Assembly (NCBI GenBank): GCA_902602415.1
Contig: CACKQW010000010.1
Location: 1-47,453 of the forward strand
Direction: 5' to 3'
Source: an uncultured Bacteroidota bacterium
GTDB lineage: Bacteria > Bacteroidota > Bacteroidia > Flavobacteriales > Flavobacteriaceae
Length of the DNA stretch: 47,453 bases
Numbering within the stretch: the first letter of the stretch is position 1; each line of letters opens with the position of its first letter. Under the pieces are notes generated by a model, which was given only the letters and a program-made list of their open reading frames with translations, ran no database searches and had not been told where the DNA came from. The translations under genes were made by a program, and so were the position numbers. Below, in pieces: positions 4,356 through 47,453 of this stretch.

Positions 4356-4360
4356 CGCAC

Positions 4361-5380: not shown

Positions 5381-5393
5381 GAATATACCAAAT

Positions 5394-6145: not shown

Positions 6146-6194
6146 TTTAATTTTTTTTCAAAATTAACTAAAAAAATTATTGTCTCAAACCTAA

Positions 6195-7124: not shown

Positions 7125-7141
7125 TTACAAGAACAATTGCA

Positions 7142-7149
7142 CAAATGTA
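7142..7149 (-). promoter_or_regulatory. Candidate -7 promoter element of nusB
   Basis: The minus strand reads TACATTTG, an exact TAnnTTTG match placed 17 bases before the nusB ATG. The same octamer stands exactly 17 bases before sucC elsewhere in the window. No good -33 TTG is seen here. Confidence 0.4.
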
Positions 7150-7175
7150 ATATAGTATTTATAAAAACTACTTAA

Positions 7176-20424: not shown

Positions 20425-23400
20425 ATGATTGGAAAAATTTTAAAGTTTTTCGTAGGAGATAAATCTAAAAAAGATTTAAAATTAATTAATCCAATAATTG
20501 ATAAGATTCACTCTTTTCATCAAGAGGTATCTAATTATTCAAATGACGAGTTAAGAGCTGAGACGATAAATTTTAAAACAAAAATTCATGATGCAACTTT
20601 AAACCTTCATTATGAAATTGATAAAATAAAATCAGAAATTGAGAATCAGACAGACATTATAAAAAAAGAATCTCTCTTTTCAAAAATTGATAAACTAAAC
20701 GAAGAAATATATCAAATTTCTGAAAGTTGCTTACAGGAAATTTTACCAAAGGCATTTGCTGTTGTCAAAGAAACAGCTAGTCGATTTGTAAACAATAAAA
20801 ATATTTCAGTTAAAGCTTCAGATTTTGATTTAAAAATTGCGCAAACTAAAGATTACGTGGAAATTAAAAAAGACCTGGCTGTGTGGAAAAATAATTGGGA
20901 TGCTGCGGGTAAAAATATAGTTTGGGACATGATACACTATGATGTGCAATTGATTGGAGGTGTGGCTATGCATCAAGGAAAAATTGCTGAAATGCAAACT
21001 GGAGAGGGAAAAACACTTGTTGCAACTCTTCCTGTGTATCTCAATGCATTGACAGGTAGAGGTGTTCACTTAGTTACTGTCAATGATTATTTAGCAAAAA
21101 GAGACAGTGCATGGATGGCCCCTATATTTGAGTTTCATGGTCTCAGTGTGGATTGTATTGATTATTATAAGCCAAACTCTATTGAAAGAAAAAATGCATA
21201 CAATTGTGACATAACTTATGGCACCAATAATGAATTTGGTTTTGACTACTTAAGGGATAACATGGCCAACTCACCTGATGACCTAGTGCAAAGAAAACAT
21301 AATTATGCCATAGTTGATGAAGTTGATTCCGTTTTAATTGATGATGCCAGAACTCCTTTGATAATTTCAGGACCAATACCAAAGGGTGACAAACATGAAT
21401 TCAATAATTTAAAACCTAAAATTGAAAAGATTGTATCAACACAAAGGAAGTTTCTGCTTGGAACTCTTTCTCAAGCTAAAAGTCAAATTTCAAACGGTGA
21501 AACAGATGAAGGTTCCTTTAACTTATTAAGAGTTTTTAGAGGCATTCCTAAAAACAAAGCACTAATTAAATACCTCAGTGAGGAAGGCATTAAACAGTTG
21601 CTGCAAAAAACTGAAAATTTCTACATGCAGGATAATAACAGAGAAATGCCTAAAATTGACAAAGAACTTTATTATGTAATAGACGAGAAGAATAATCAAA
21701 TTGAATTAACTGACAAAGGAATTGAATTTTTATCAGGCAAAGAAGATCCAAACTTTTTCATTATGCCTGAAATTGGTATTGAAATTTCAAAAATTGAAAA
21801 TAAAAAACTTAGCAAGGAGGATGAAGCAAAAGAAAAAGATGAGTTATACAGAGATTTTAGTATTAAATCAGAAAGAATTCATTCGATAAATCAATTACTT
21901 AAAGCATATGCGTTATTTGAAAAGGATATTCAATATGTAGTAATGAACAATAAAGTTTTAATTGTTGACGAGCAAACTGGTAGAATCATGGATGGAAGAA
22001 GGTATAGCGATGGCTTACATCAGGCAATTGAAGCTAAGGAAAATGTTAAAATTGAAGCTGCTACACAAACATTTGCCACGATAACCCTGCAGAACTATTT
22101 TAGAATGTATAACAAACTTTCCGGAATGACTGGAACGGCTGTTACAGAGGCTGGTGAATTTTGGGAAATATACAAACTTGATGTCATTGAAATCCCTACC
22201 AATAAACCCATTCAAAGAGATGATAAAGAGGATATAGTTTTTAAAACGAAAAGGGAAAAGTATAATGCCGTTATTGAAAATGTAACGGATTTGTCAAGAT
22301 CTGGTAGACCTGTATTAATTGGAACAACTTCTGTTGAGATCAGTGAATTACTAGGAAGAATGTTGAAAATTCGTAAGATCCCACATAATATTTTAAATGC
22401 AAAGCTTCATAAAAAAGAATCTGATGTTGTTGCAGAAGCTGGAAAGCCTGGACAAGTTACCATAGCCACCAACATGGCTGGACGTGGTACTGATATTAAA
22501 CTAATTGATGAGGTTAAAGATGTAGGTGGTTTAGCAATTATTGGTACAGAAAGACATGATTCAAGGAGAGTAGATAGACAGCTAAGAGGTAGATCTGGTA
22601 GACAAGGTGATCCTGGTAGTTCTCAGTTTTATGTTTCTCTTGAAGACAATCTCATGCGTTTATTTGGAGCTGAGAGAATAGCAAAAATGATGGACAGAAT
22701 GGGATTAAAGGAAGGAGAAGTTATACAACACTCTATGATTACTAACTCCATTGAAAGGGCTCAGAAGAAAGTCGAAGAAAATAATTTTGGCATTAGAAAA
22801 AGACTATTAGAATATGATGATGTCATGAATGCACAAAGAGAAGTTGTTTACAGAAGAAGAAATAATTCTCTTTCCGGGGAAAGACTAAGGATTGATATTT
22901 CAAATATGATCTATAATACCTGTGAAAATATCACTTCTGACAACAAAAATATAAATGATTTTAAAAATTTTGAATTTGAGCTTATCAAATATTTTTCGGT
23001 AAGCACAGATATTGATGCAGATTCATTTGAATCTATGAATATTAATGAAATAACAGAAAAAATATATAAAGTGGTGCTAAACCATTACATGAATAAAATA
23101 GAAAGTAATGCTAAATTAGCTTTTCCAGTAATCAAACATGTCTATGAAAACCAAAGAGAAAAATTCAAAAGAATTGTAGTTCCATTTTCAGATGGAGTTA
23201 AAACACTTCAAGTTATTACGAATTTAGAAAAAGCATTTGAATCAGGTGGTGATCAACTTATCACTGATTTTGAAAAAAACATCACTTTAGCAATTTTAGA
23301 CAATTCATGGAAAAACCATCTCAGAAAAATGGATGAGCTGAAACAGTCTGTTCAACTAGCTGTTCATGAGCAGAAAGATCCTCTTCTAATCTACAAATTT

Positions 23401-23769
23401 GAAGCTTTTGAATTATTTAAAATATTATTAGACGAAGTCAATAAAGAGATTTTATCGTTTTTATTCAAGGCTGAAATTTCTACAAATAACCAGAATGTTA
23501 AAGAAGCAAGTGAAAGAAAACCGGTTAAATTAAACACTTCAAAAGAAGAAATACCAAACTCTGATCAGTTACGAGAGCAAAACAGAGCTATTACAAACAG
23601 AGCTTCAAATCAACAGGTTGAAACAATAGTTAGAACCCAACCTAAGGTTGGAAGAAATGATAGGGTCAATATCAAAAATGTAAAAACTGGGGAAATGAAA
23701 GAATTAAAGTATAAACATGCTGAGAATTTAATTTCTAGTGGTGAATGGATCATGAATAACAAACAGTAA
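20425..23769 (+). CDS. secA: Preprotein translocase ATPase SecA
   Basis: SecA drives protein export through SecYEG. The 1,114 residues exceed the usual 850-900. Walker A (TGEGKT) lies at about residue 192, roughly 90 later than in E. coli, owing to a coiled-coil-like insertion near the N-terminus (about residues 55-95). The helicase-type motif VDEVDSVLIDDARTPLIISGP follows. A second insertion of about 100 residues lies after it. Later motifs include TNMAGRGTDIKL, IGTERHDSRRVDRQLRGRSGRQGDPG and LEYDDVMNAQREVVY; these are cited here in shortened form. The C-terminus ends ELKYKHAENLISSGEWI and has no zinc-binding CxC motif, which is normal for Bacteroidota. meaB begins 4 bases after the stop. 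Confidence 0.98.
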   Translation: MIGKILKFFVGDKSKKDLKLINPIIDKIHSFHQEVSNYSNDELRAETINFKTKIHDATLNLHYEIDKIKSEIENQTDIIKKESLFSKIDKLNEEIYQISESCLQEILPKAFAVVKETASRFVNNKNISVKASDFDLKIAQTKDYVEIKKDLAVWKNNWDAAGKNIVWDMIHYDVQLIGGVAMHQGKIAEMQTGEGKTLVATLPVYLNALTGRGVHLVTVNDYLAKRDSAWMAPIFEFHGLSVDCIDYYKPNSIERKNAYNCDITYGTNNEFGFDYLRDNMANSPDDLVQRKHNYAIVDEVDSVLIDDARTPLIISGPIPKGDKHEFNNLKPKIEKIVSTQRKFLLGTLSQAKSQISNGETDEGSFNLLRVFRGIPKNKALIKYLSEEGIKQLLQKTENFYMQDNNREMPKIDKELYYVIDEKNNQIELTDKGIEFLSGKEDPNFFIMPEIGIEISKIENKKLSKEDEAKEKDELYRDFSIKSERIHSINQLLKAYALFEKDIQYVVMNNKVLIVDEQTGRIMDGRRYSDGLHQAIEAKENVKIEAATQTFATITLQNYFRMYNKLSGMTGTAVTEAGEFWEIYKLDVIEIPTNKPIQRDDKEDIVFKTKREKYNAVIENVTDLSRSGRPVLIGTTSVEISELLGRMLKIRKIPHNILNAKLHKKESDVVAEAGKPGQVTIATNMAGRGTDIKLIDEVKDVGGLAIIGTERHDSRRVDRQLRGRSGRQGDPGSSQFYVSLEDNLMRLFGAERIAKMMDRMGLKEGEVIQHSMITNSIERAQKKVEENNFGIRKRLLEYDDVMNAQREVVYRRRNNSLSGERLRIDISNMIYNTCENITSDNKNINDFKNFEFELIKYFSVSTDIDADSFESMNINEITEKIYKVVLNHYMNKIESNAKLAFPVIKHVYENQREKFKRIVVPFSDGVKTLQVITNLEKAFESGGDQLITDFEKNITLAILDNSWKNHLRKMDELKQSVQLAVHEQKDPLLIYKFEAFELFKILLDEVNKEILSFLFKAEISTNNQNVKEASERKPVKLNTSKEEIPNSDQLREQNRAITNRASNQQVETIVRTQPKVGRNDRVNIKNVKTGEMKELKYKHAENLISSGEWIMNNKQ

Positions 23770-30786: not shown

Positions 30787-31237
30787 AATCAGAGTTATTC
30801 TTGACAATGATAATGATGAAGATGTGTTCAAAGATTTTGAAGTATCAAAAAATATTAACTTAACAAAATTTCATGAGTACATCAAAAAAGAATTCAATTT
30901 ACAAGGAAGTGAAATGGCGTCTTTTTACTCCGTGGATGAAAACTGGGATACTTTGATTGAATATTCATTAGTTCCATTTGATGATAATTCCGTATCCATG
31001 GAAAAACTTAGTTTACATGAAATATTAAATAATAATGAATCCAGTATATTATACGTTTATGATTTTATGAATATGTGGACTTTTTTTATTGAGTTACTCA
31101 GCGAGACAAGCAAAAATAAAAATGAATCTCATTTTAGTCTTATTTTTTCAAAAGGTGATATCCCCAAAATTCCTCCGAAAAAAAAATTCACACATGATGA
31201 CAAGGATATTTTCTCAAATGATTTTAATATTTTATGA
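30776..31237 (+). CDS. PRiA4_ORF3 / IS1096-TnpR-like family protein of unknown function
   Basis: The 153-residue acidic protein matches the pRiA4b ORF-3-like family: YKIRVILDNDNDEDVFKDFEV, then EMASFYSVDENWDTL and LYVYDFMNMWTFFIEL, cited here as short tags only. The name comes from a plasmid and an insertion sequence, but I see no transposase, inverted repeats or recombinase residues. It overlaps ctaA by 11 bases and uvrB by 4, which suggests a settled chromosomal gene. Two adjacent ATGs (30776, 30779) exist. Function is unknown. Confidence 0.82.
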   Translation: MMYKIRVILDNDNDEDVFKDFEVSKNINLTKFHEYIKKEFNLQGSEMASFYSVDENWDTLIEYSLVPFDDNSVSMEKLSLHEILNNNESSILYVYDFMNMWTFFIELLSETSKNKNESHFSLIFSKGDIPKIPPKKKFTHDDKDIFSNDFNIL

Positions 31238-33231
31238 AATTTAATTTAAAATCTGAATTTATTCCTACTGGAGATCAGCCAGCAGCGATTAATGATTTAG
31301 TGGATGGTATTCATAAAAATGTATATCATCAAACTTTATTAGGAGTAACTGGATCGGGTAAGACATTCACGGTTGCTAATGTAATTGAAAAAGTAAATAA
31401 ACCTACTTTGGTTTTAGCGCATAACAAAACACTAGCAGCACAACTGTATGCAGAATTTAAAAATTTTTTTCCAGAAAATTTAGTTGAATATTTTGTTTCC
31501 TACTATGATTATTATCAGCCTGAAGCCTATATTCCAACAACTGGAATATATATTGAAAAGGATTTATCAATTAATGAGGAAATTGAAAAACTAAGATTAA
31601 GTGCAACATCTGCTCTTCTTTCTGGAAGAAAAGATATTATCATTGTTGCATCTGTTTCATGTATTTATGGAATGGGGAACCCTGAATCATTTAAAAGTAG
31701 TATAATTGAAATAGAAGAGGATTCTAATATTTCAAGAACAGATTTATTAAATAAATTGGTCCAAAGTCTATATTCAAGATCCATAACAGATAACTTTAAA
31801 CAAGGTAAATTTAGGATTACAGGGGACACGATTGATATTTTCCCTGCGCACACAGATCATGCCTATAAAATTCATTTTTTTGGGGATGAAATAGAAGAAA
31901 TTGAAAAATTTGATCCTGAAACAAATGAAACTTTGGAAAGAATGCACAGAATTACAATTTATCCAGCGAATATTTTTGTTACAAGTCCAAATATGATCCA
32001 TGATGTAATTAAAATGATTCAAGACGATTTGATTAAACAATATGACTACTTCATGGAAATAGGGTCCAATTTAGAAGCAAAAAGGATAAAAGAGAGAACC
32101 GAATTTGATATGGAGATGATTAAAGAATTAGGATACTGCTCAGGAATTGAAAATTATTCTAGATACTTTGACGGACGTAAACCAGGGACAAGACCATTTT
32201 GCCTTTTAGATTACTTCCCTGAAGATTATTTAATGGTTGTTGATGAAAGCCATGTTACCATACCCCAGGTTAGAGCCATGTATGGTGGGGATAGAAGCAG
32301 AAAAGAAAATTTAGTTGAATATGGTTTTAGACTTCCTGCTGCCATGGACAACAGACCTTTAAAGTTTGAGGAATTTGAAAGTTTACAAAATTCAGTAATA
32401 TATGTAAGTGCTACACCTGCTGATTATGAACTAGAAATGAGCGAAGGTATTATAGTTGAACAAATAATTAGACCTACAGGGCTTTTAGATCCCAAAATTA
32501 TTATTAAATCTACAAAACATCAAATTGATGATTTAATTGATGAAATTCAAGAAAAAGTTAATTTGAAAGAAAAGGTTTTGGCTACAACTTTAACCAAGAA
32601 AATGGCAGAAGAGCTTAGTAGATTTTTAAATAACATTGAAATAAGATCTAAATATATCCACTCCGACATAGATACAATTGAAAGAGTAGAAATTATGGAG
32701 GGATTAAGAAATGATGAATTTGATGTTTTGATCGGAATTAATTTATTGCGTGAAGGGCTCGACTTACCTGAAGTGTCTTTGGTAGCAATTTTAGATGCTG
32801 ACAAAGAAGGTTTTTTAAGATCACATAGATCTCTAACACAAACAATTGGAAGAGCAGCTAGACATGTCAATGGGATTGCAATCCTTTATGCTGATAGAAT
32901 GACAAAAAGTATTAATAAAACTATTGAGGAGACTAATTATAGAAGAAAAAAACAGATTGAGTTCAATACAAAAAATAACATCACCCCAACTCCAATCATT
33001 AAGCATGTTAAAAATCCGTTAACCGAAAGACTTATCAAAAAACCTGATCTTCTTCCAAACGATGACATCATTGATTTTGTTATTCCCGAGAAGCCTAAAG
33101 AATTTGATAAAAAGATAAGGGAATTGAGAAAAGAAATGGAAAGATCCGCAAAAGAATTAAACTTTAAGCTTGCTGCAACATTCAGAGATCAAATTAAAAA
33201 AATGAAGGAAATTAAATCAGCTAGATCTTAA
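31234..33231 (+). CDS. uvrB: Excinuclease ABC subunit UvrB
   Basis: UvrB is the damage-verifying helicase-like subunit of nucleotide excision repair. The 665 residues carry FIPTGDQPAAI, Walker A GVTGSGKTFTVANV, the beta-hairpin region YYDYYQPEAYIP, DESHVTIPQ, LLREGLDLPEVSLVAILDADKEGFLRS (motif V-VI, shortened tag LREGLDLPEV), and a C-terminal UVR motif around residues 628-662 for UvrC contact. It overlaps the preceding gene by 4 bases and converges on sucC with a 15-base 3' overlap. Length is standard. Confidence 0.98.
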   Translation: MKFNLKSEFIPTGDQPAAINDLVDGIHKNVYHQTLLGVTGSGKTFTVANVIEKVNKPTLVLAHNKTLAAQLYAEFKNFFPENLVEYFVSYYDYYQPEAYIPTTGIYIEKDLSINEEIEKLRLSATSALLSGRKDIIIVASVSCIYGMGNPESFKSSIIEIEEDSNISRTDLLNKLVQSLYSRSITDNFKQGKFRITGDTIDIFPAHTDHAYKIHFFGDEIEEIEKFDPETNETLERMHRITIYPANIFVTSPNMIHDVIKMIQDDLIKQYDYFMEIGSNLEAKRIKERTEFDMEMIKELGYCSGIENYSRYFDGRKPGTRPFCLLDYFPEDYLMVVDESHVTIPQVRAMYGGDRSRKENLVEYGFRLPAAMDNRPLKFEEFESLQNSVIYVSATPADYELEMSEGIIVEQIIRPTGLLDPKIIIKSTKHQIDDLIDEIQEKVNLKEKVLATTLTKKMAEELSRFLNNIEIRSKYIHSDIDTIERVEIMEGLRNDEFDVLIGINLLREGLDLPEVSLVAILDADKEGFLRSHRSLTQTIGRAARHVNGIAILYADRMTKSINKTIEETNYRRKKQIEFNTKNNITPTPIIKHVKNPLTERLIKKPDLLPNDDIIDFVIPEKPKEFDKKIRELRKEMERSAKELNFKLAATFRDQIKKMKEIKSARS

Positions 33232-34416
33232 CACCTCTTGAACTTTATCGGCTGCTTCTTTGAATTCAATAGCACTGTGAAAATTAAGACCAGATGAATC
33301 AATAATTTTTTTAGCTAGATCTGAGTTAGTACCCTCCAATCTAACAATAATGGGAATAGAAATTTCATCTTTCATCTTTGTGTAGGCATCTACAACTCCA
33401 TTTGCAACTCTGTCACATCTCACTATTCCACCAAAAATATTTACCAAAATTGCTTTTACCTTAGAATCTCTTAAAATTATTCTAAAAGCTTTTTCTACTC
33501 TCTCACTATCAGCAGTTCCACCTACATCTAAAAAATTTGCGGGCTCTCCCCCAGCCTGCTTAATTAAATCCATAGTTGCCATTGCAAGCCCAGCACCATT
33601 TACCATGCAACCAACGTTTCCATCTAAATCAACATAATTTAGACCTGCTTCTCTTGCTTCAACTTCTATGGGATTTTCCTCTCGCAGATCACGCATTACT
33701 AAATAATCTTTATGTCTAAATAAAGCATTATCATCAATAGTCACCTTTGCATCTACAGCTAGGACTTTATTATCACTTGTTTTTAAAACTGGATTTATCT
33801 CAAAAAGAGATGCATCTGACTCACTGTATGCTTTGTAAAGAGCTTTAATAAACGAAGTCATATCTGCATGAGCATCACCTGACAGCTTTAAATTAGTAGC
33901 TACTTCAACAGCATTATTTTCTGTTAAACCAATTTTTGGATCAATATCAAGCGTATGAATCAAATGCGGTGTCTTCTCAGCAACTGTTTCGATATCCACT
34001 CCACCTTCAGTTGAATACATAATCATATTTCTCGCATTTGCTCTATTGAGTAATACAGAAACATAAAATTCTTCTGTTTCCGATGGACCAGGATAGTAAA
34101 CATCTTCCGCAACTAATACCTGATGTACCTTTTTTCCTTCCTTTGAAGTTTGAGGGGTTATCAAATTCATTCCAATAATTTGATTGGAAATTGATAATAC
34201 TTCGTCAATGGATTTTGCTAATTTAACGCCACCTCCTTTTCCCCTTCCACCCGCATGAACTTGGGCTTTTATAACGTAAAAATCTGTACCGGTTTCTTCA
34301 TGTAGTTGATTGGCTTTGTTTACAGCTTCTTCAGCGCTGGTAGCAACGTAGCCACGTTGAATTTTTACACCGAAACTATTTAAAATTTTTTTGGCCTGAT
34401 ATTCATGTAAATTCAT
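33217..34416 (-). CDS. sucC: Succinyl-CoA synthetase beta subunit
   Basis: This TCA-cycle enzyme couples succinyl-CoA cleavage to nucleoside triphosphate synthesis. The 399 residues have the ATP-grasp start MNLHEYQAKKIL, the nucleotide site KAQVHAGGRGKGGGVK, the metal-ligand segment FEINPVL and the C-terminal CoA-ligase part with NIFGGIVRCDRVANG. The alpha-subunit gene is not adjacent. A good promoter candidate stands just upstream. Confidence 0.97.
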   Translation of the reverse strand: MNLHEYQAKKILNSFGVKIQRGYVATSAEEAVNKANQLHEETGTDFYVIKAQVHAGGRGKGGGVKLAKSIDEVLSISNQIIGMNLITPQTSKEGKKVHQVLVAEDVYYPGPSETEEFYVSVLLNRANARNMIMYSTEGGVDIETVAEKTPHLIHTLDIDPKIGLTENNAVEVATNLKLSGDAHADMTSFIKALYKAYSESDASLFEINPVLKTSDNKVLAVDAKVTIDDNALFRHKDYLVMRDLREENPIEVEAREAGLNYVDLDGNVGCMVNGAGLAMATMDLIKQAGGEPANFLDVGGTADSERVEKAFRIILRDSKVKAILVNIFGGIVRCDRVANGVVDAYTKMKDEISIPIIVRLEGTNSDLAKKIIDSSGLNFHSAIEFKEAADKVQEVLRSS

Positions 34417-34433
34417 AAATCAAAAATTTGAAA

Positions 34434-34466
34434 CAAATGTAATAAAGATTGGTATTTAGTAACAAA
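34434..34466 (-). promoter_or_regulatory. Candidate flavobacterial promoter of sucC
   Basis: On the minus strand TTTG (34466-34463) is followed after 21 bases by TACATTTG (34441-34434), an exact -7 consensus. The sucC ATG starts 17 bases further on, giving a very short leader. Confidence 0.5.
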
Positions 34467-34521
34467 AACTTTGGTATTATTTGTGATAAGTTATGAAGAA
34501 TTTATACTTAGTTTTGCAGGC

Positions 34522-35622
34522 ATGAAAAATATACCTTTTGTTATTATTTTTTTACTAATTCTTGGATGTAAATCTAAAAAGACTCCAATTCATTTTGCAA
34601 TTAAATCTTCCAAACCCTCTATCTCTAACGTAAAAAAGAATTTAAAAGATCATAAAATTCAGATCAAATTAACAGTGATAAATAAAGATGGAAATATTGA
34701 TTATGAATATAATGTTGATAACGAAGAATATTTCTATCCTGCAAGTACCGTAAAACTTCCTATTGCTTTACTTGCTATAGAAAAAGTAAATGAATCGAAA
34801 TTCATAACATTAGATACTCCATTTAGAGTGGAAAATGAAAGTGAAAAATATACATTACGAGATGAAATATTTAAAATGTTTGTTATTAGTGATAATAAAT
34901 CCTTTAATAGAATTTTTGAATTTTTAGGACAAGATTATATTAATGGTAAGTTAAATGCTCTTGGATTTAAAAATACTACAATATTTCATCGGCTTTCAGT
35001 TGTGGATTCCGACAATTTAAAAACTAAGAAGGTATACTTTTATATTGAAGAGGACAGTATTTCTTATCAGACTTTTAATCGAGAAATTGATGCTAATCAA
35101 ATAAATGGATTAAAGAAAGGCAAAAAGTTTTTTAACAATAAGAATGAATTAGTAAAAAAACCGATGGATTTTTCTAAAAAAAACAGAATTTCAATCAATG
35201 ATTTACATGAAATGACCACTCAAGTTTTTCTCCCTGAAAACTACCATAATAAAAATTCTTTTAAGCTTGAAAATAAACAAAGAGATTTTATTTGGGATGC
35301 TATGTCCGCATTACCAAGAAAACTCGGACTTAGCGAAGAAAAGTATCCCGGTAATTTTGTTAAATTTTTTGTAAGAGGAGATGAAAATGTAAATGATACA
35401 ATTAATAACAATCTAAAAATATACAATAAGGTTGGCTCTGCATATGGACAACTTACTGAAACTGCATTTATTGATTCTGATAATCAAAAAATCATTCTAA
35501 CAGCTAGCATGTACGTTAATGATAACAAAATAATTAATGATGATATCTACGAATATGAATCAGTTGGAATACCATTTTTTGCTTCATTAGCAAAGGAAAT
35601 CTTATATCATTTAGAAAAATAA
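34522..35622 (+). CDS. Class A beta-lactamase-fold serine hydrolase lipoprotein
   Basis: From the ATG at 34522 the product is 366 residues and begins with a lipoprotein signal ending LILGCKSKK. An in-frame TTG at 34471 would add 17 residues and bury the lipobox, so it is rejected. Active-site motifs of the family are visible: PASTVKLP (the S-x-x-K nucleophile), SDNKSFN (the SDN-type motif) and KVGSAYG in place of K-T/S-G. Between the second and third motifs lies a long insertion-like stretch rich in Lys and Asn. It is probably anchored to a membrane; activity on beta-lactams or on peptidoglycan cannot be told. It is divergent from sucC and precedes the giant gene. Confidence 0.83.
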   Translation: MKNIPFVIIFLLILGCKSKKTPIHFAIKSSKPSISNVKKNLKDHKIQIKLTVINKDGNIDYEYNVDNEEYFYPASTVKLPIALLAIEKVNESKFITLDTPFRVENESEKYTLRDEIFKMFVISDNKSFNRIFEFLGQDYINGKLNALGFKNTTIFHRLSVVDSDNLKTKKVYFYIEEDSISYQTFNREIDANQINGLKKGKKFFNNKNELVKKPMDFSKKNRISINDLHEMTTQVFLPENYHNKNSFKLENKQRDFIWDAMSALPRKLGLSEEKYPGNFVKFFVRGDENVNDTINNNLKIYNKVGSAYGQLTETAFIDSDNQKIILTASMYVNDNKIINDDIYEYESVGIPFFASLAKEILYHLEK

Positions 35623-35716
35623 CTGCTTCTCTTATATTTCAGAAATTATAATGTTTATTATATAATTTGGGAGAATTCGTTATATGTTATATTTTAGAGT
35701 TTCCATTTAACTTGAA

Positions 35717-38700
35717 TGAATATTAAACTATCCACACTGTTATTATTGATTTTGCCTTTTATTGGGCTTTCTCAAATCAATGATTCTAATATTCAAGATG
35801 CGGTTAATTTATGGGTTTCTGATCAAGAGGCTGCCATCTCCGCCTACGGAAATATTTCTGAATGGGATGTGAGTGATGTAACTGATATGTATCAATTATT
35901 TAAGAATAAACAAAACTTTAATGATGATATTTCATCATGGAATACAAGTAATGTTACAAATATGGCAGAGATGTTCAACTTTGCTGTTTCTTTTAATCAA
36001 GATATTGGTTCGTGGGATACTAGTAATGTTACTAATATGCATGGAATGTTTGCCTATGCATCTTCATTCAATCAAGATATTGGAGGTTGGAATACATCGA
36101 ATGTAAGTCTGATGTATTACATGTTTGATAATGCAACATCATTTAATCAGGATATTGGATTATGGGACGTATCTAATGTTATTAGCATGGATAACATGTT
36201 TGTTGAAACTCCATTTGACCAAGATATAAGTTCTTGGAATGTTAGCAATGTCACAAGTATGAGCAGGACTTTTCTTGGATCTACTTTTAATCATAATATT
36301 GGATCTTGGGATGTAAGCAATGTAACAATCATGGAGAAAATATTTGCTTCCAATCATGATTTTAACGGAGACATTAGTGGATGGGATACAGGGCAGGTGA
36401 CAAATATGTCTGGGGCTTTTTCTGCAGCTCATGCATTCAATCAAAATATTAGTTCCTGGGATGTTTCAAATGTAACTGACATGTCCGAGATGTTTAGTCA
36501 CGCTAATTCTTTTAATCAAGATATTGGATCATGGAACACGTCAAGTGTCACTGATATGTCTGAAATGTTTTTCAGTGCAGATGTATTCAACCAAGATTTA
36601 AATTCTTGGGATGTTTCTAGTGTAACGAACATGAATAGCATGTTTCATGATGCTGGAAACTTTAACGGGAACATATCTTCTTGGAATACTTCTAATGTAA
36701 CTGATATGTCTAACATGTTCAGAGGAACTTCAAACTTTGCTCAAGTCATTAATAGTTGGGATGTAAGTGGTGTTACAGATATGAGTGGAATGTTCAGAAA
36801 TTCAACATTTAATACCAATATCAGTTCTTGGAATGTTGGAGGTGTTCAAAATATGGAATACATGTTTAGTAATGCTGTTGTCTTTAATCAAAATATTAGT
36901 GAATGGGATGTAACATCTGTCACATCTATGAATTGGATGTTTAACAATGCGTATGTATTTAATAAGAATTTAGGTTCATGGGATGTTAGTAATGTTACAA
37001 GCATGGTAAATATGTTTAGTCAGTCTGGATTATCTTTTGAAAATTACGATAACCTTTTGATTGGTTGGTCGCAACAAACATTACAATCTGATGTAATTTT
37101 TGGTGCTGAAGGAGTTTTCTACTGTTTAGCTGATTCAGAAAGGCAGAGTATTATTAATAATTTTGGATGGACAATTAACGATGCAGGAGCTACTATTGAT
37201 TGTAATGTACCCGACAATACTACGCCGGTTTCAGTTAATCAAAACGGATCGGCCTTCACAGCTGTCCCAGCAAATATTCAATTACAGGTTAGTGATCAAG
37301 ATGGGGATGCACTTACCTATACTATCATTGATGCGCCAACCAATGGAACGGCTGTAATTACAGAAACACAAGCAGGTGGAGTCCTTACTTATACTTCCAA
37401 TGCTGGATTCACAGGGAATGAAACATTTACCTACAAAGCAAATGATGGAACCTCTGACAGTAATATCGGTACTATATCTATTGAGGTGTTTGAAAAAGAT
37501 GCCGCTCTAAATTGGGCTACACACTATGCGGGACAAGATTGGTTAAAAGATCAACAAAGAGATGATTTGGGGAATATGTATGTGGTAGGAAACTTTTATG
37601 ATTTTTCTAATTTTAAAGATAACACCACCTTAAATGCAATCTACTCAAGAGGAAATCGAGATGGTTACATCGCGAAATATGACGAAAACGGAGAATTACA
37701 ATGGGTGAATACTTTTGGAGGAAATTACAACGATTATGCTGATGCCATCAAAATCGATGGTGACGGAAATCTTATTGTTGCAGGAAGAATAACGCAAGTT
37801 GCTACATTTAGTGACGGGGAAGAGCTAGGAAATACAGACTCTCCTACCAGTCAACACAAGCAGGTAATTTTAAAATTAAACGGTAATACAGGTGATCTTT
37901 TATGGAAAACATACACTGACTACATACCTCAATATAGTAACAATAACAATTACCATTATGATAATAATATTGTTATTAAAAGTGATGGAACTATCGTTTC
38001 AATGGTTAATGAATTTAACTGGAATGAAAACAATACAATAAAAGTATTAGAGATTAGTTCAGCTAACGGGACTTTTAATTTGGTAAATGAAGTTCCGTTT
38101 ACAGCGTATATTACGGACATAGAGTTAGATAATAACGATAACATATACTTAGCTGGTCGAGATATAAGTTACTTTAATGACAGTTGGAACTATTCGGGTG
38201 TTTTAACAAAGCTTGATGCTAATTATAATGAGACTTGGGAAGCAATGATGACAGGCTCTGATGTTTACTTATTTAATGTTGAATATGATTCTGTCAATGA
38301 TTTAATCTATGTAACAGGTAGAGGAACCGGAATTAACTATAATCCTTTAGGAGAAACCTATACACTTGCCAATCCAGAAAGTATCGGAGCATTTTTTGCA
38401 AGCTATAACGCTCAAGGTATTATGCAATCTGTACACTTATTTGCTAATAGCTCAGTAAACAGGGTTGAAGAGCAAATGTCGATGAGTATAATGGAGAATA
38501 GATTACTACTTTCAGGAACATTTTACGGATACCCTGATTTTGATGTAACCAGTGAACAATTCTACCCTGTTCAAAACTATAACGGTACGGGAAGAACATT
38601 TGTGTCCATTTATGACTTAGAAGGGGGTCTTGAGCTAACTGGTCAATATTTTGTATCAGATTATAAGTCTGAATTTTATCTAAATGGAAATAATTTAACA

Positions 38701-41700
38701 AGAGCCTATCAAAATGCTTCTGGTGATAGTCAATTATACGGCTACAGTCATGAGCAAATTGTCAGTATTACCAATATACCTAGCCGAAATAATAACAGTG
38801 TTGGTGAAATGAGTGGAATCGTTAGTTATACTATTGATTTAGAAGATTTTCCTTCGAATACAGCACCTATTGTTAGTAATGCTACTAGTAAGAGTGCCTT
38901 TACAGGTATTGCTGCAAATATTCAACTAGAAGTTAACGATCAAGATGGGGATGCGCTTACCTATACCATTATTGATGCTCCAACTAATGGAACGGCTGTA
39001 ATTACAGAAACACAAGCAGGTGGAGTTCTTACTTACACTTCCAATGCTGGATTCACAGGGAATGAAACATTTACCTACAAAGCAAATGATGGAACCTCTG
39101 ACAGTAATATCGGTACTATATCTATTGAGGTGTTTGAAAAAGATGCCGCTCTAAATTGGGCTACACACTATGCGGGACAAGATTGGTTAAAAGATCAACA
39201 AAGAGATGATTTGGGGAATATGTATGTGGTAGGAAACTTTTATGATTTTTCTAATTTTAAAGATAACACCACCTTAAATGCAATCTACTCAAGAGGAAAT
39301 CGAGATGGTTACATCGCGAAATATGACGAAAACGGAGAATTACAATGGGTGAATACTTTTGGAGGAAATTACAACGATTATGCTGATGCCATCAAAATCG
39401 ATGGTGACGGAAATCTTATTGTTGCAGGAAGAATAACGCAAGTTGCTACATTTAGTGACGGGGAAGAGCTAGGAAATACAGACTCTCCTACCAGTCAACA
39501 CAAGCAGGTAATTTTAAAATTAAACGGTAATACAGGTGATCTTTTATGGAAAACATACACTGACTACATACCTCAATATAGTAACAATAACAATTACCAT
39601 TATGATAATAATATTGTTATTAAAAGTGATGGAACTATCGTTTCAATGGTTAATGAATTTAACTGGAATGAAAACAATACAATAAAAGTATTAGAGATTA
39701 GTTCAGCTAACGGGACTTTTAATTTGGTAAATGAAGTTCCGTTTACAGCGTATATTACGGACATAGAGTTAGATAATAACGATAACATATACTTAGCTGG
39801 TCGAGATATAAGTTACTTTAATGACAGTTGGAACTATTCGGGTGTTTTAACAAAGCTTGATGCTAATTATAATGAGACTTGGGAAGCAATGATGACAGGC
39901 TCTGATGTTTACTTATTTAATGTTGAATATGATTCTGTCAATGATTTAATCTATGTAACAGGTAGAGGAACCGGAATTAACTATAATCCTTTAGGAGAAA
40001 CCTATACACTTGCCAATCCAGAAAGTATCGGAGCATTTTTTGCAAGCTATAACGCTCAAGGTATTATGCAATCTGTACACTTATTTGCTAATAGCTCAGT
40101 AAACAGGGTTGAAGAGCAAATGTCGATGAGTATAATGGAGAATAGATTACTACTTTCAGGAACATTTTACGGATACCCTGATTTTGATGTAACCAGTGAA
40201 CAATTCTACCCTGTTCAAAACTATAACGGTACGGGAAGAACATTTGTGTCCATTTATGACTTAGAAGGGGGTCTTGAGCTAACTGGTCAATATTTTGTAT
40301 CAGATTATAAGTCTGAATTTTATCTAAATGGAAATAATTTAACAAGAGCCTATCAAAATGCTTCTGGTGATAGTCAATTATACGGCTACAGTCATGAGCA
40401 AATTGTCAGTATTACCAATATACCTAGCCGAAATAATAACAGTGTTGGTGAAATGAGTGGAATCGTTAGTTATTATGCAAACCCTGATAACCTTAATCTA
40501 CCCCCTGTTGCGATTGATCAAGAGGTAACTACAGAAGAAAATACACAAATCGAAATAACATTAGAAGCAACAGATGAAAATGGAGATGAGCTTACCTACA
40601 TCATCGTTGATCAACCGACAAACGGATCTATTGAAATATCTGGAAATACAGTGGTTTACACTCCTGAACTTTTCTTTGACGGGGATGATAGTTTTACGTT
40701 TATGGCAAATGACGGTCTATTGGACAGCAATATAGCAACAGTTAGTATTACTGTAAATAATTGCTTATTTAATCTATCCACTGCAGATGCGCTTGAAGTT
40801 TGTGATTTTGATGACAACGGGTTTGGAGTTTTTGATTTAACAGTTGCTGAAGCTCAAATTTTTGATGGAGTTGATATTGGAGACACCACACCTGATGAAT
40901 TAGTTGGAGAATTTATTCATGAAGTAACATCTGCTGCACAAGAAACTTTTGAAACTGAAGTTGGACAAAATTACAGATTAGAAATTTCAGGAGAAGTTTT
41001 TGTGGGTGCAGGAGCGGGAATTGATGCTGCTTATTTAACCTCAACAGGGTTACCAAGAGCGCCCACATGTGATGATTCTATATATACCTCGTTATATTGT
41101 GATGATCCCAATCTAAGACCTACTCCAGATGAATATGATCCTGAGAACCATACTTATAACTATTATTTCACAGCAGATTCTGCATCTATATATGTTGGAT
41201 TTATGGACTTTGGTCCTTTCAGTGATAATAGCGGAACTATAACTTTTAGATTATTTAAAGTTTTTGGAGATTACACGATTTCCTATCACCCAACTTCAAA
41301 TGATGCTCAAAATAATTCGAATCAAATATCCGATCCTACATCATACACAAATGATGTTGCTTATTCAGATGAAGTTTTCCTTAGAATACAAACTGTAGAA
41401 TCTGAACAAAGTGATTGTTATAATATTTCAAAAATTGATTTAAATGTGGTTTCTACCAGTGACGAAATTCCCGCCCCTACTGGAAATGCTATTCAAACTG
41501 GTTGTAGTGACTTTACTGTTGGTAACAATAATAATATTTTTGAGGGCCAAAATTTCAATTACTATAGCTCATTAAACTCAACAATACCTCTTGATGAAGA
41601 TACACAATTAATAGATGGTGCTTTTTATTATTTATCTCAAACTATAAATGGATGTGAGAGTGCTGACAGACTAGAATTCCAATATTTTGCACCAGAACCA

Positions 41701-44700
41701 ACGATTACAATTTCTGATCCTATCATCTGTGAGGGTGAAAGTACAACAATAAGTGTTACTTCAAATCCTTTCGCTGGAACAGTAAGCTACATTTGGAATT
41801 CAGATCAAAATATAACTTCTGAGAGTATTACAGTATCCCCTACTGAATCTGGAAATGGATGGGTTGATCTTGCTTGGACGTATGAATCAGCAGGTGAAAT
41901 ATATGAAACGCTATGTAGATATTTCTATACTATAACTGTTATAAATATAGATATGCCAGAAACAGACTGGCCAGAAAACACTGTTATATTTTGTGATCAA
42001 GATGATTTAACTATTGTAGATTTAGCAGCTGGGCAAACAGCTACAAATGCCATATGGTATGAAACAGAAACTAGTTTAACTCCAATTCCTGAGACTACAG
42101 AATTAGTAGACGGAGAAACGTATTATGTTTCAAATTTTGATGAAAATTCAGGTTGTGAATCTGCTCGACTAGATTTGACTGTTATCATTGAGCCACTTGA
42201 AATTGAATTAGGTGAAAATATAACTGCTTGCACAGGAGATGTAGTTATTTTGGATGCAGGATCAGATTTTGATGGCTATTTATGGAGTACTGGTGACACC
42301 ACGCAAACAATACTTGTTTCAGAACCAGGTAATTATTCAGTTACTGTTGATGCATCTTCATGTGAAGGATCAGATGAAATATCGGTTGAATTCACTGAAA
42401 TTGAATCTGTAACAGGTGAAAGTGAGCAAAATTTCTGTATTGGAGCAACAATTTCTGACCTTAATGTTGAAGGAGAAAATATCCAGTGGTATAGTGCTGC
42501 AGAAAATGGTGCTTTGTTGGATCCTGATTATATTCTTAGTGATGGTGAGACTGTTTATGCTTCACAAACTTTGGAAAATTGTGAAAGTCAAGAACTATTT
42601 GCTGTTTTGGTTTCAATAAACGAATCTGAAACACCAGCCGTAACTGGGGATAATATTCAAGTATTTGATATTGAGCCTATGATTTCAGAAATTACTGTAA
42701 TTGGTGAAAATATTATTTGGTATGATGCACCAGTTAACGGAAACATTTTAGAGCAAAGCTTTGTTGTTTCTAATGGACAAACAGTATATGCTTCTCAAAC
42801 CATTGAGGGGTGTGAGAGTGATGAGCTATTTTCTGTGACAATTCAAATAAGTACGGATGGTGATGACCCACCAATAATCACTTCACAAGGAAATGAAATT
42901 TATTGTCCGCAAACGGAGCAAAATATTGTAACCTCATTCAATATTCAAGACCCTGATGATATTGAATTAGATGCTTTATATGTACAAATTTCTCAGGGAT
43001 ATGTTGTTGGTGAAGATATTCTTACGTTAACAGGAAGTCACCCAGGAATAACAACAACTTGGAATGTCAGTGAAGGTAAATTAGAAATTGCTGGAAATGG
43101 TGGACCAGCACTTATCTCTGATATTATAGCTGCTGTTTACGATATTGTATTCTTCTCCCCGAATCCAAACCCCGTTGATAAATATTTCTCATTTACGATT
43201 GGAAATGTGAATTATCTCCCATCAACAGGTCATTATTACATATACTTTGAATCAGTTGGGATAACATGGATTCAGGCCAGGAGTGCCGCTGAAAATTCAA
43301 CATATTATGGTCTTCAGGGATATTTAGCAACAATTTTATCTGCAGAAGAAAATCAAATTGCAGCAGAACAAATTGGTGGAGCTGGATGGATTGGAGCAAG
43401 TGATCAAATTGTGGAAGGAGAATGGAATTGGGTTACTGGACCTGAAGCTGGAACTAATTTCTGGAACGGAAATTTTACAGGCAGTGCAGTAGATGGTATG
43501 TATACTAATTGGAATGAATTTGAACCAAACCAAGCAGGAGATGAAGATTACGCACATATTACTGATGATTCTATAGGAATAATTGGCTCTTGGAACGATT
43601 TATTAAATGATGGAGCATTTGAAGGTCCTTATCAACCCAAAGGATATATTGTTGAATATGGTGGTATGCCTGGGGACCCAGTACTAAATCTTTCATCAAG
43701 CACAAGTTTACTTTCCGTTCCTAATATTGAAACCACTCCTTTTGACGGATATGACTGTGATGAGGTTGAGTTAATTGCATTTTCCGATTATGAAGATGGG
43801 GATGTTTATTGGTATGATTCACAAGAGGGTGGAGAACCAATTTTCTATGGAACTAATTTTTATCCTGAAATTTCGGAAACTACTACATACTGGGTTTCTA
43901 ATTTTGATATTGGAGAATGCGATGATTATCCGCGAACAGAAATCGTTGCAAACATTACCCCTGTTCTTTCGGAGGTAGTAACTCCAAATGTATATGTTAA
44001 TGAGGTGTGCTACACTGTAGAAGAACTTGTTACTGATGTTTTGATTAATAACCCTTGCGCTAATGTTTCAAATATTACATTCACAAGTGGAAATGACTTT
44101 AACGATGTAAATGGTATTGGTCATTTTATTGAGCCTAGTGGATCCTTCCCTTTCAGTGAGGGTATAGTTTTATCAACTGGAAATGCCTTATTAGCATCAG
44201 GTCCTAATACAGGTATTGGTGATGCCAGTACGGGAGATAATCAGTGGCCCGGAGATAATGATTTGAGTAATTTAATTGGTGAAGAAACATTCAATGCTTC
44301 AACCATTGAATTTGATTTTGTTCCTATTTCAAATAATTTGAGTTTTAGGTTTATTATGGCATCTGAAGAATACGATCAGGGATTTTATGAATGTGAATAT
44401 TCTGATGTGTTTGCGTTTTTATTAACAGACTCTAATGGAAACACCACAAACCTTGCGGTGATCCCTGAAACTGATATTCCAATTGCAATCACTAATATTC
44501 ATCCCGCAAATGATGTATGTGATGCTGTCAATGAAGAATATTTCCACGGATATACCCCTTTAAATCAACCTGATATTGGGTATGATGGTAGAACCATTGC
44601 TTTTGTTGCTCAAGCGGATGTAACTATTGGTGAAACATATCATATAAAACTTGCTGTTGCAGATGCATCAGACTCTGTATTAGACTCAGCTGTTTTCCTT

Positions 44701-47453
44701 GAAGCTGGTAGTTTCGATCTTGGATTATATTTAGGTGATGATATTTTAGTAAGCTCAGGTGAATCTGAATGTCAAGGAGATCCAGTAATACTGGATACGC
44801 AAATTGATGAGAGTAATGAAAACATTTCATTTGTTTGGACATATGAAGGTGCAGTTCTTAATGACGAAAATTCACCCTCATTATCAATTTTTGAATCTGG
44901 AAATTATGGTGTGGTTGCAACATTATCTGAAGATTGTGTTTTATCAGATGAGATATATGTAGAATTTTATGTTCCGATAGAATTAGAACCATTAAATGAT
45001 CTTGAGTCCTGCGATAATTTTAATGTTGATGGAAGTGGAATTTTTGATATAACGGAACAAACGCAAAACATCCTTGAACAAATTAACTCCGAAAATTATA
45101 TTATCAACTATTTTGAATCTGAAGAAGATGCAATAAATAATACTAATGCAATAGAATCATTAAACTTTTATGAGAATATTACACCATTCAATCAAACAGT
45201 ATTTGTTAGTTTATATGAACCTGAATATCCAGAGTGTACCACAATTTCGAGCTTTAATTTAGTAACAATTGACCCACCATCATTTGTAGTTCCTACTCCA
45301 CTTGAGGAATGTGATGATGATTACGATGGTATTGTTTCCTTCTTTGATCTATCTCAAAAAACAGAGGAAATACTAAACGGACAAACCGGAATATCTGTTT
45401 CTTACCACGAAACTCTATTTAATGCAGAAAGTGGTGAAAATCCTATCGAAGGTCTATACACCAATATTGAAGCGGATACGCAAACACTATATGTAAGACT
45501 GGTTGATGATGAAAGTAGTTGTATTACTTCTACTGAGCTACAACTAATCGTCAACCCTATTCCTACTGTACTAGTAGGCCCTGCTTACGAAGTGTGTGAT
45601 GATGATTACGACGGTATTGGATCTTACGATCTTAGTACACTTGATGAAACGCTTCTTGATGGTCAAACTGGTGTATCCATCTCTTACTACGAATCCCAAG
45701 AAGATGCAGACAATGCAACCAATGTATTAGATGTGAATTATCAAAATACTGTCCCAGACAATCAAACACTATATGTAAGACTAGAAGTAGACGAGACAGG
45801 ATGTTATGCTACTACTACTCAAGATCTAATCGTCCATCCGCTGGCTGTAATCGAAGTAAGTGATTATGAATTATGCGATTACACGAATCCTGGAGATTTA
45901 ATAGAAGTATTTGATATTACAACTAAATCTGATGAAATTGTCAATGGACAAGATGTAGTACTAACTTACTTTACTTCATTATTAGATTCTCAAAATAATA
46001 CCAACCCAATAAGTAATGAGGAATTAGCTGCTTATTCTAATACAGAGCCAACAGAAACAATATATGTTACTTTGGAACAAAATACTACGGGATGTATTAC
46101 CTATGGATCCTTTGATATTATTGTTAATCCACTGCCTAATGTTATCGAAAATACTGACTTAGTACAATGTGATATTGATGATGTACAAGACGGAATATCT
46201 ATTTATAACTTGGAAGAAGCTGCAGAGAATATTGTTATAGGAGATGATCCTAATAACTATGTACTTACCTTCCATTTATCTCAAGAAGACTTAGATGCTG
46301 GAATCAATGCCATTGAAGAGCCAACAGCATATGTGAATGAAACACCACTACAAAATATATACTGTAGAGTAGAAAATATAAATACCGGATGTTACACAAC
46401 TTCATACTTCTATTTAGAAACAGTATTTAATCCAATACCTGATGATGCTGGATTAGTAGTTTGTGATGACAGTGAAATGAATGGAACAGATGCAGATTAC
46501 AATGGTCTGGGACTCTTTACATTAAGCGATGCAGATGAATATGTATTATCACTAATTGTAGCAAATCCAAATAATGATATAACAGATGCGAGTGAACTGA
46601 CAGTTACTTATTACCTAACGGAACAAGATGCACTATTGGAGCTCAATCAATTGCCAAATGAATATATCAGTGAAGTGCCAAATCAACAAGAAATTTATTT
46701 AAGAGTAGAAAGAGGTAACGACTGCTTTGGAATCAATAGTATGACTCTAGAAGTATTACCCGTGCCAAGTTATGTTGATATTCCAGATCAAATCTTGTGC
46801 TCCATGACCCCAGGATTCTTTGATATTTTGCTATCTGATTATGATGTTCAGGTCTTAAACGGTCAAAATCCTGATCAATATACCATAACCTATCATACAT
46901 CTATAGATGATGCTGAAAATGGAGTAAATCCATTAGAAAATGCATATACTGTAGTAGATCAAGTAGACTTGTTTGTACGTGTTCAAGACAATGTAACAGG
47001 ATGTTATATTTCTAATATTGACTTTACACTTACTGTTGAACCAAAACCTTTATTTACGCCCCCTGACCAGCCAATCGTTGTATGTGATGAGGATACTGAT
47101 GGTTTCACAACTATAGATATTTCTATTATGACCGAAGATATAATGAGAGGTCCTGATGGAGCTATTATTGAAGAAAATATTGTCACCTACCACGAAACAG
47201 CTGAAGATATGAACTTAGGAACCAATGCTATCGAAGATCCTGCAGCTTATGTAAATATTACTAATCCTCAAATAGTTTATGTAAGAATCGAAGATGATAT
47301 GACTCCTTCTACAGGGTGTTATGGAGACACAACTCTGGAGATAATAGTGGAAACTCCTCCAGTTGTAAATGAGCCTTCAAATTTAGAGTATTGTGATCCT
47401 GATGCAGATGGGTTTGGTGTCTTTGATCTTACAACTGCAAATGCAGAAATTGC
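35717..47453 (+). CDS. Giant modular secreted/surface adhesin-like protein; 3' end outside window; apparent frameshift in the signal peptide
   Basis: An ATG at 35717 opens a clear signal peptide ([14 protein letters not shown]), but that frame ends at a TGA at 35870-35872. The frame one base over (codons starting at 35758) supplies the rest of the signal (FIGLSQ) and continues without a stop to the window edge, about 3,900 codons in all. One extra base between about 35741 and 35763, in T-rich DNA, would join them. Without it the first usable starts are GTG 35869 or ATG 35887, which lack a signal. Modules in order: 16 DUF285 repeats, cadherin-like plus beta-propeller twice, a third cadherin-like domain, a module with an inserted beta-sandwich, CHU_C-associated Ig-like modules, a C-type lectin-like domain, a choice-of-anchor L domain, then repeats of about 95 residues. 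Comparable flavobacterial proteins end with a type IX secretion sorting domain; that is expected beyond the window, not seen. Adhesion is inferred. Confidence 0.88.
35741..35763 (+). other. Probable single-base frameshift site in the signal peptide of the giant gene
   Basis: Reading from the ATG at 35717 gives a hydrophobic leader up to ILP. Reading in the downstream frame gives [11 protein letters not shown], a standard flavobacterial cleavage region. The frames differ by one missing base. Adding one T to either the TTTT at 35751-35754 or the TTT at 35758-35760 restores a continuous protein. Confidence 0.75.
35854..37029 (+). repeat. Sixteen BspA-type DUF285 repeats
   Basis: Units of 24-25 residues follow the pattern [16 protein letters not shown], two or three residues, MF and a short variable end. 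I count sixteen, from [12 protein letters not shown] to [17 protein letters not shown] cap ([11 protein letters not shown] to [13 protein letters not shown]) closes the array at about 37203. The units differ at the DNA level, so the array is old rather than freshly expanded. DUF285/BspA repeats form leucine-rich-repeat-like solenoids often involved in binding. Confidence 0.9.
37204..37500 (+). other. Cadherin-like / Ig-like domain 1 of the giant protein
   Basis: The segment contains [38 protein letters not shown] and ends ISIEVFEK. This is the common bacterial tandem cadherin-like fold. Its second half is part of the identical repeat block. Confidence 0.8.
37393..38829 (+). repeat. Direct repeat, copy 1 (1,437 bases, reads identical to copy 2)
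   Basis: The block encodes the end of cadherin-like domain 1 and a beta-propeller-type domain with [23 protein letters not shown] and [11 protein letters not shown], recalling SBBP repeats. Copy 2 lies 1,644 bases (548 codons) downstream in the same frame. Line-by-line comparison over the parts I checked found no difference. Confidence 0.92.
39037..40473 (+). repeat. Direct repeat, copy 2 (1,437 bases, reads identical to copy 1)
   Basis: This is the second copy of the propeller unit. Identity begins after a T/C difference (37392 against 39036) and ends at 38829/40473, after which copy 1 runs into [10 protein letters not shown] and copy 2 into YANPDNLNL. The cadherin-like domain 2 just before it (about 38854-39144) is homologous to domain 1 but not identical. 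Confidence 0.92.
40498..40761 (+). other. Cadherin-like domain 3 of the giant protein
   Basis: Residues read [40 protein letters not shown] and ISITVNN-type end (VSITVNN). It is a diverged relative of domains 1 and 2, placed where a third unit would start, but no propeller follows it. Confidence 0.78.
40762..41450 (+). other. Repeat-type module with an inserted beta-sandwich
   Basis: It opens [16 protein letters not shown], the same signature as the terminal modules near the window end, then carries an insertion of roughly 110 residues ([19 protein letters not shown] to [11 protein letters not shown]) before the module resumes with [15 protein letters not shown]. The insertion resembles a pre-peptidase-like beta-sandwich, but I cannot name it firmly. 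Confidence 0.55.
41482..42850 (+). repeat. String of CHU_C-associated Ig-like modules
   Basis: At least four modules show the pattern W/F-Y-x(n)-L, DG-x-T/F-Y-Y-x-S-Q/N, and C-E-S, for example [11 protein letters not shown] with [14 protein letters not shown] and [11 protein letters not shown] with [14 protein letters not shown]. Interleaved PKD-like modules carry [12 protein letters not shown]. Such modules are spacers typical of large secreted Bacteroidota proteins. Confidence 0.75.
43228..43665 (+). other. C-type lectin-like domain in the giant protein
   Basis: About 146 residues read as a [21 protein letters not shown] (first strand and helix), [54 protein letters not shown] and GSWNDL, ending KGYIVEYGG. 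The EPN motif that sets mannose-type sugar preference in animal lectins is present, as is a following W-N-D. Sugar or ice/protein binding is possible; the ligand is not predictable. Confidence 0.85.
44005..44724 (+). other. Choice-of-anchor L domain in the giant protein
   Basis: The domain shows [36 protein letters not shown] (shortened tags DFVPIS and FIMASEEY), [17 protein letters not shown], and [17 protein letters not shown] with [11 protein letters not shown]. This family is known from surface proteins that carry varied C-terminal anchors, including type IX sorting domains. Confidence 0.88.
44980..47453 (+). repeat. At least nine tandem modules of about 95 residues, last one cut by the window
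   Basis: Each module opens with a C-D-x-D/N-x-D-G-x(3)-F-D-L block, then a GQ turn, V-S/T-Y-Y/H-x-S/T, an E-DA helix-like stretch, N-P/A-I, an aromatic Y-x-N, Q-T-L/I-Y-V-R-L/V-E and T-G-C-Y, closing with V-x-P-x-P. Eight complete copies and part of a ninth are visible. A cysteine near the start and one in TGCY recur, which suggests one disulfide per module. Copies differ at the DNA level by much more than the propeller repeats. Confidence 0.85.

Follow-up and report, generated by a model that had tools for sequence, protein, structure and literature searches.

The 3′ end of the window, meaning the whole 47,453-nucleotide stretch analyzed here, is occupied by a single reading frame which is still open where the sequence ends. 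This raises the questions of whether the frame represents a genuine gene, what type of protein it specifies and which of its properties set it apart from its relatives.

The reading frame and its missing tail

The frame, referred to here as gene A, initiates at an ATG at position 35,716 and is open in translation to position 47,451, thus comprising 3,912 codons. The first-pass annotation had assigned it at least 3,900 codons from position 35,717; the length holds, and the start is corrected by one base upstream because numerous stops interrupt the frame at 35,717. That the frame runs off the window is equally apparent, as the window ends where its contig, C10 (47,453 bp), ends. This contig is one of 28 in a 1.27-Mb assembly (G000) which is 74% complete. 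Gene A has a G+C content of 0.349, compared to 0.288 in the rest of the window. Its features are as follows.

31234..35622, either strand: locus landmarks uvrB (+), sucC (-) and a beta-lactamase/PBP-like gene (+); ORFs upstream of gene A
35716..47453, +: gene A, giant type B surface protein of the type IX secretion system (T9SS), 5′ 3,912 codons; runs off the contig end, length via G018
35716..35772, +: likely signal peptide of 19 residues; translation read by eye
35773..37155, +: DUF285/PARCEL (BspA-like) repeats; PF03382, TIGR02167, 75-nt direct repeats
36793..42285, +: putative recombinant tip, about aa 360-2190, edges approximate; identity profiles and fourfold sites, G010-like and largely missing in the nearest relative, G018
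37204..38850, +: cadherin-like domain 1 and beta-propeller 1; Big_9/Cadherin matches, predicted propeller fold
38851..40497, +: cadherin-like domain 2 and beta-propeller 2; tandem copy of unit 1
40498..40770, +: cadherin-like domain 3; Big_9 at aa 1594-1679
40783..41460, +: module split by an inserted domain; HMM match at aa 1837-1914, 46 bits
41461..42870, +: Ig-like spacers of the CHU_C-associated type; sequence reading
42871..43695, +: conserved core, consisting of a preceding domain and a C-type-lectin-like domain with EPN, ED and WND motifs; ortholog alignment A1, PDB profile
44035..44715, +: choice-of-anchor L domain; NF038133, 166.6 bits
45010..47361, +: stalk modules 1-8, each of about 95 aa and with a predicted alpha/beta fold; HMM, AlphaFold model of a module pair
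47392..47453, +: start of module 9, directly preceding the shared tail; contig C9 (gene C) ends collinearly

The three landmark genes, which we take from their sequences to be uvrB, sucC and a beta-lactamase/PBP-like gene, precede gene A in 13 of the 16 genus genomes bearing its core (the window included), the contigs of the other three being too short to show them. The beta-lactamase/PBP-like gene (34471-35622) shares 78 to 79% identity with those of the two closest species and 40 to 52% with those of other members of the genus; it is a fast-diverging neighbor compared to uvrB, which retains 79 to 97%.

Two orthologs are complete. That of G018, situated at the uvrB-sucC locus, specifies 3,613 aa with a signal-peptide-like start, DUF285, Ig, lectin-like and choice-of-anchor L domains, 17 modules and a terminal TIGR04131 domain; that of G006 specifies 2,686 aa with 17 modules and TIGR04131, and no DUF285 match was obtained within it. 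Residues 1912-3912 of the window protein align to G018 residues 498-2518 at 86% identity. A second contig of the window's genome, C26 (3,041 bp), encodes 1,013 aa, is open at both ends and is 94% identical to G018 residues 2568-3580, so that it appears to represent the missing tail of gene A. Mapped on G018, 49 codons are unaccounted for between C10 and C26 and a further 33 after C26, which terminates 100 nt ahead of the stop codon in G018 numbering. The sum of both contigs and these gaps predicts a whole product of approximately 5,007 aa. The type IX sorting domain anticipated beyond the window edge is present in both complete orthologs, which end in TIGR04131 (112.6 bits in G018 and 122 in G006), and C26 covers the first 57 of the 85 positions of this model with 74.9 bits (cut-off, 35); the type B domain is thus assigned to the window gene through C26 and orthology.

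The length of the frame, its repeats and its position at a contig edge might be taken to indicate a decaying gene or a chimeric product of assembly. Such an origin is considered extremely improbable, given 3,912 codons without a stop, dN/dS values of 0.05 to 0.25 for the tip domains compared with G010, and complete orthologs at the same locus.

Domains, stalk modules and anchoring

The DUF285, cadherin-like and Ig-like units initially read from the sequence were recovered as Pfam matches to DUF285, Big_9, Cadherin_5, Cadherin_4 and Ig_7. PF03382 (DUF285; E value 5e-156, 510.8 bits) and the NCBIfam PARCEL repeat TIGR02167 (2.5e-47, 158 bits) both exceed their cut-offs, and Ig_7 matches two stretches, more strongly at aa 2694-2749. 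The choice-of-anchor L domain, likewise proposed beforehand, lies at aa 2774-3000, the cut-off of its model being 27 bits. The proposed C-type-lectin-like domain is supported by a profile of 11 orthologs (alignment A1), which matches 54 PDB sequences at E ≤ 0.1 (best, 2.2e-5), all C-type-lectin-fold proteins by their names and presumably of one common fold. Pfam Lectin_C scores 21.8 bits in the window protein, just below its cut-off of 22.6, and 23.0 bits, above it, in that of G003. The columns of the EPN, ED and WND motifs show no variation among the orthologs (11 of 11); we take these motifs to mark a calcium/sugar site, and lectin-like binding by the core is putative.

Although no Pfam model matched the propellers at E ≤ 0.1 in the window protein, the propeller assignment gains support from an AlphaFold model of moderate confidence (pLDDT 69.8, 4 sequences), for which the enzyme CylK ranks first, accompanied by many beta-propellers, among the 50 PDB matches listed; CylK also matches by sequence (E value about 1e-3). 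The cadherin-propeller unit is duplicated in tandem at a spacing of 1,644 nt, with zero mismatches between 37,393-38,829 and 39,037-40,473. Within the window the two propellers show full identity over 1,437 nt, and within G010 they show 99.7% over 1,562 nt; between these two genomes they share 61% protein identity. The pair thus seems to have been homogenized within each genome, a likeness which the assembler may have exaggerated. Positive selection on the propeller was considered and rejected (dN/dS 0.25, with a window peak of 0.71 that never exceeds 1).

The 95-residue module, of which at least nine copies had been counted, is present in eight whole copies (aa 3099-3882) according to an HMM built for this study; nine is reached only when partial copies are included, namely the interrupted one at aa 1837-1914 and that which starts at the window edge, from aa 3893 on. 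The module matches no Pfam or NCBIfam model and, at E ≤ 10, no PDB chain by sequence. It was detected in 20 of the 148 genomes of the phylum sample and merits its own family entry. AlphaFold predicts an alpha/beta domain for a module pair (pLDDT 95.4, pTM 0.80), for which no convincing PDB fold match was obtained, the best E values being those of cadherin and Ig pairs with TM-scores of 0.22 to 0.29. By query TM-score, the neck and a fragment of the Aureispira grappling hook protein GhpA rank highest (0.48 and 0.45) among the 50 PDB matches listed. GhpA is a giant multidomain protein of marine Bacteroidota, as is the gene A product, and the latter might by analogy serve as a capture device. This is regarded as very unlikely, as the TM-scores lie below 0.5 and the PDB search at E ≤ 10 returned no sequence match, so that the two are not placed in one fold or sequence family.

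Secretion of the gene A product is predicted to begin with Sec export, its N terminus being signal-peptide-like as judged by eye from the translation, and to continue through the type IX translocon SprA, which is present in the window's genome (TIGR04189, 2737 bits). Anchoring would then follow from the binding of the type B C-terminal domain by a PorP/SprF-type shuttle. Three PorP/SprF genes are encoded in this genome, one of which (G000:C1:92907-93860) has no type B gene beside it and is a candidate common shuttle; another lies downstream of two type B genes arranged in tandem (1,076 and 1,096 aa) at positions 1813-8413 of G000:C2:118000-129000 (L039). The 5′ 1,298 nt of that tandem pair are 99.8% shared, followed by divergence, which is the opposite of the pattern described below for gene A and its paralogs. 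No PorP/SprF gene was found among the ORFs of at least 100 aa in the 3.2 kb downstream of gene A in G018. In Flavobacterium johnsoniae such a gene directly follows 9 of 12 type B genes, an arrangement which is common and not required. According to the available part of PMC12618676, three orphan type B proteins of that organism use one orphan shuttle, Fjoh_1677, to which the unlinked gene on C1 may be compared. As far as the available parts of PMC12618676 and PMC9143113 describe SprB and other type B proteins of F. johnsoniae, these comprise a signal peptide, to which the likely one of gene A would correspond, and likewise a large repetitive body and a type B C-terminal domain; unlike them, gene A combines a lectin-like/choice-of-anchor L core, alpha/beta modules and a DUF285-propeller tip, and belongs to a set of three loci with near-identical 3′ ends. 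On the cell surface, a stalk of 17 alpha/beta modules would hold up the lectin-like/choice-of-anchor L core, on top of which the window's species would carry an extended tip in which DUF285 repeats are joined by cadherin-like domains and two propellers.

Distribution of the core and history of the tip

The combination of domains had been considered unusual, and the exact head architecture is indeed rare, whereas the core is widespread in the genus and has shorter relatives in cultured flavobacteria. The core (lectin-like domain, choice-of-anchor L, modules and type B tail) is present in 16 of 21 genus genomes; it was absent from G011, G012, G013, G014 and G017, which are 65 to 68% complete. 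Among 119 genomes searched, strong matches to the cadherin-propeller unit were confined to three of the 21 genus genomes (G000, G010 and G003), with weak matches (E values of 1e-11 to 1e-13) in five others. The core follows directly upon a short leader in 10 of the 16 gene A copies; three (the window, G018 and G003) carry a long head from the start, two (G010 and G020) retain parts of a head with the start missing, and G001 is assigned to none of these classes. Only two of the 16 copies are complete, the other 14 being broken by a contig end.

Within named collections, relatives possessing the entire core are found in several marine flavobacterial metagenome-assembled genomes (MAGs), and cultured flavobacteria possess shorter relatives with a lectin-like part, 0 to 10 modules and a similar C terminus. 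Short type B proteins of Yeosuana, Mangrovimonas, Flagellimonas and MAR_2010_72 resemble gene A in their N-terminal core domain, lectin-like motif, module and C terminus; the complete ones span 646 to 1,951 codons with 0 to 10 modules, match the core over approximately 320 to 370 residues and, unlike gene A, show no DUF285-like pattern. Relatives of the module and of choice-of-anchor L are widespread in cultured Flavobacteriaceae (L058-L059, L115-L137), and a Polaribacter MAG contains a 1,901-codon frame with 10 modules. In the open-licence literature, judged by title and the start of the abstract, no description of this family was found.

The tip and the core differ in their affinities. Outside the propellers, the tip of the window protein is 88% identical to that of G010, with 194 of 299 fourfold sites (65%) identical, compared to 64% protein identity and 94 of 247 fourfold sites (38%) for the core (Fisher p 4.6e-10 for the fourfold sites). 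A housekeeping gene at 20425-23769, presumably SecA-like, agrees with the core (109 of 284 fourfold sites, 38%). Relative to G018, protein identity of the core is 93 to 98%, and most of the tip (approximately codons 360 to 2190) is missing or diverged. As the tip is far closer to G010 than the core or the housekeeping gene are, and is mostly missing in G018, it follows that the tip and the remainder have different histories, and the tip looks recombined. T9SS-exported surface proteins of Porphyromonas gingivalis are also diversified by domain rearrangement and allelic exchange, according to the available part of PMC5266723; those proteins (gingipains and HagA) are different, and that part of the source makes no mention of a stalk shared by three loci.

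Three loci and their common tail

When the stalk was used as the query, its modules were also recovered at other places in the genomes, attached there to different heads. Three giant type B genes can be distinguished in the genus, which differ in their heads and have their 3′ end in common: gene A, linked to uvrB; gene B, with 16 modules, which lies beside what we take to be htpG and is complete in G011 and G012; and gene C, with a CUB and PKD head and 10 modules, which lies beside a presumed secDF and of which G017 and G004 contain complete copies. In the window's genome, contig C10 carries the head of A, C9 that of C and C22 that of B, and C26 is the single tail contig. The ends of C9 and C10 are collinear, with two identical bases left over in each, and a single collapsed tail appears to continue both A and C; this sharing is deduced from contig ends, and as SPAdes may pop bubbles, the tails are possibly not exactly identical. 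The evidence favors this arrangement over C26 being the tail of gene C alone, which is considered less likely. One misfit is that C22 (gene B) breaks before its first module, where C10 is unbroken.

Two tails of one genome were assembled separately in G002 only, a metagenome assembly which may mix strains and in which C29 and C1, the contigs of gene A, are 98.8% identical where they overlap. Here, the A and B tails, on separate contigs, differ by 5 mismatches in approximately 3,541 nt to the stop codon and diverge thereafter (the 3,555 aligned nt contain 10 mismatches, five ahead of the stop and five right behind it). Their identity is 0.998, compared to 0.815 and 0.729 with the A tails of G006 and G018, so that in this one genome paralogs are more alike than orthologs between species, the relation by which concerted evolution is recognized.

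Tails of different species are 68 to 98.5% identical, mostly below 88%. These comparisons draw on a table in which 14 rows are tails, eight others (A_G000, A_G001, A_G002cut, A_G003, A_G004, A_G009, A_G019 and B_G010) having been set aside as mid-stalk matches. Tail and uvrB identity are positively correlated (Spearman 0.60) over 35 between-species pairs from 9 tails and 8 genomes, pairs which are non-independent and of which 21 involve collapsed tails of unassigned locus. The mean of tail minus uvrB nucleotide identity is -0.005 for tails of different loci (n=10) and -0.025 for those of the same locus (n=4). Tail identity, therefore, follows species distance and not locus, which is the pattern of concerted evolution.

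The positions of contig ends bear on the same question. Paralog contigs end at the same homologous base in four of the six genomes with two truncated paralogs, G010 and G008 showing no such coincidence, and an origin of the ends by chance was rejected because, in independent genomes, they recur at G006 codons 850-851 (four gene A contigs) and 1632-1633 (three). The gap between A and the tail is 145 nt in three of four genomes (G000, G005 and G019) and approximately 290 nt in G003, as mapped through G012. It is proposed that 145 nt reflects the trimming of 2 × 100 bp minus an assembler k which we take to be 55. The ends of C26, and of C7 and C20, which begin 36 and 45 nt past the stop of the relatives' genes, lie where expected if 100-bp ends were trimmed from graph neighbors. 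Trimming of 100 bp from contig ends is stated for one single-cell pipeline in the available part of PMC9771814. An exact shared suffix at contig ends was found in only two of 24 directed comparisons, both in G002 (70 nt); its absence elsewhere is expected under such trimming and is no direct proof of it.

By our reading of the ORFs, the usual 3′ flank follows gene A in 3 of 3 cases, gene C in 2 of 3 and gene B in 4 of 5. The flanks of gene C in G004 (C6, L213) and gene B in G012 (C20, L210) are those usual for A and C, and result either from misassembly through the shared tail or from real exchange.

Taken together, gene A is proposed, with a probability of roughly 0.7, to encode a modular T9SS surface adhesin of a marine flavobacterium with a small genome, one of three with a recombination-homogenized stalk and tail and different, exchangeable heads. 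Homologous recombination would keep the stalks and tails of A, B and C near-identical within each genome, while tips would diversify and pass between lineages and the anchor would stay common, a common anchor that would allow all three products to use one shuttle. An unlikely alternative is that gene A encodes an SprB-like type B adhesin of the ordinary kind and that the near-identical tails are an artifact of collapsed repeats, strain mixing or chimeric amplification. The contig breaks in 14 of 16 gene A copies, the single-cell names of several genomes and the two unexpected flanks among 11 would fit such an origin; however, collapse itself requires near-identical sequence, the two G002 tails have different 3′ flanks as well as five coding mismatches, tail identity tracks species rather than locus, and the coincident ends of paralog contigs fall at homologous bases.

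The preferred reading of three adhesins with a homogenized stalk may tentatively be extended to a head-exchange system, in which the identical stalk-anchor DNA acts as recombination arms, one anchor and an orphan shuttle serve every head, and heads and 3′ flanks are movable from one of the uvrB, htpG and secDF loci to another as well as from species to species. Were this rather improbable extension true, the odd flanks of G004 and G012, the mosaic tip and the homogenized propeller pair would be its traces. Comparable to genes A, B and C are the bab adhesin genes of Helicobacter pylori, likewise paralogs with near-identical ends, a divergent part and gene conversion between loci, termed concerted evolution in a reference title there (PMC4552749, available part). 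Going by the same part of that source, the bab products are small outer-membrane proteins with a variable middle, unlike the far larger T9SS proteins described here, in which only the 3′ end is shared and the heads are unrelated.

It is the behavior of the family, more than the list of domains, which is unusual: three loci encode different heads on near-identical 3′ ends, and the tip looks recombined. Gene A is most probably a real giant adhesin and a variant of the type B T9SS surface proteins, its apparently homogenized multilocus stalk being the notable part. Coding for its product would take up approximately 1.2% of the 1.27-Mb partial assembly, which is costly for a genome of small size, and up to three giant genes of this type are maintained in the genus. 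If the shared stalk is real, such proteins are under-counted because single-cell and metagenome assemblies cut them short, and the shared, homogenized stalk would provide a model of how streamlined ocean bacteria vary their surface recognition while keeping one secretion anchor.
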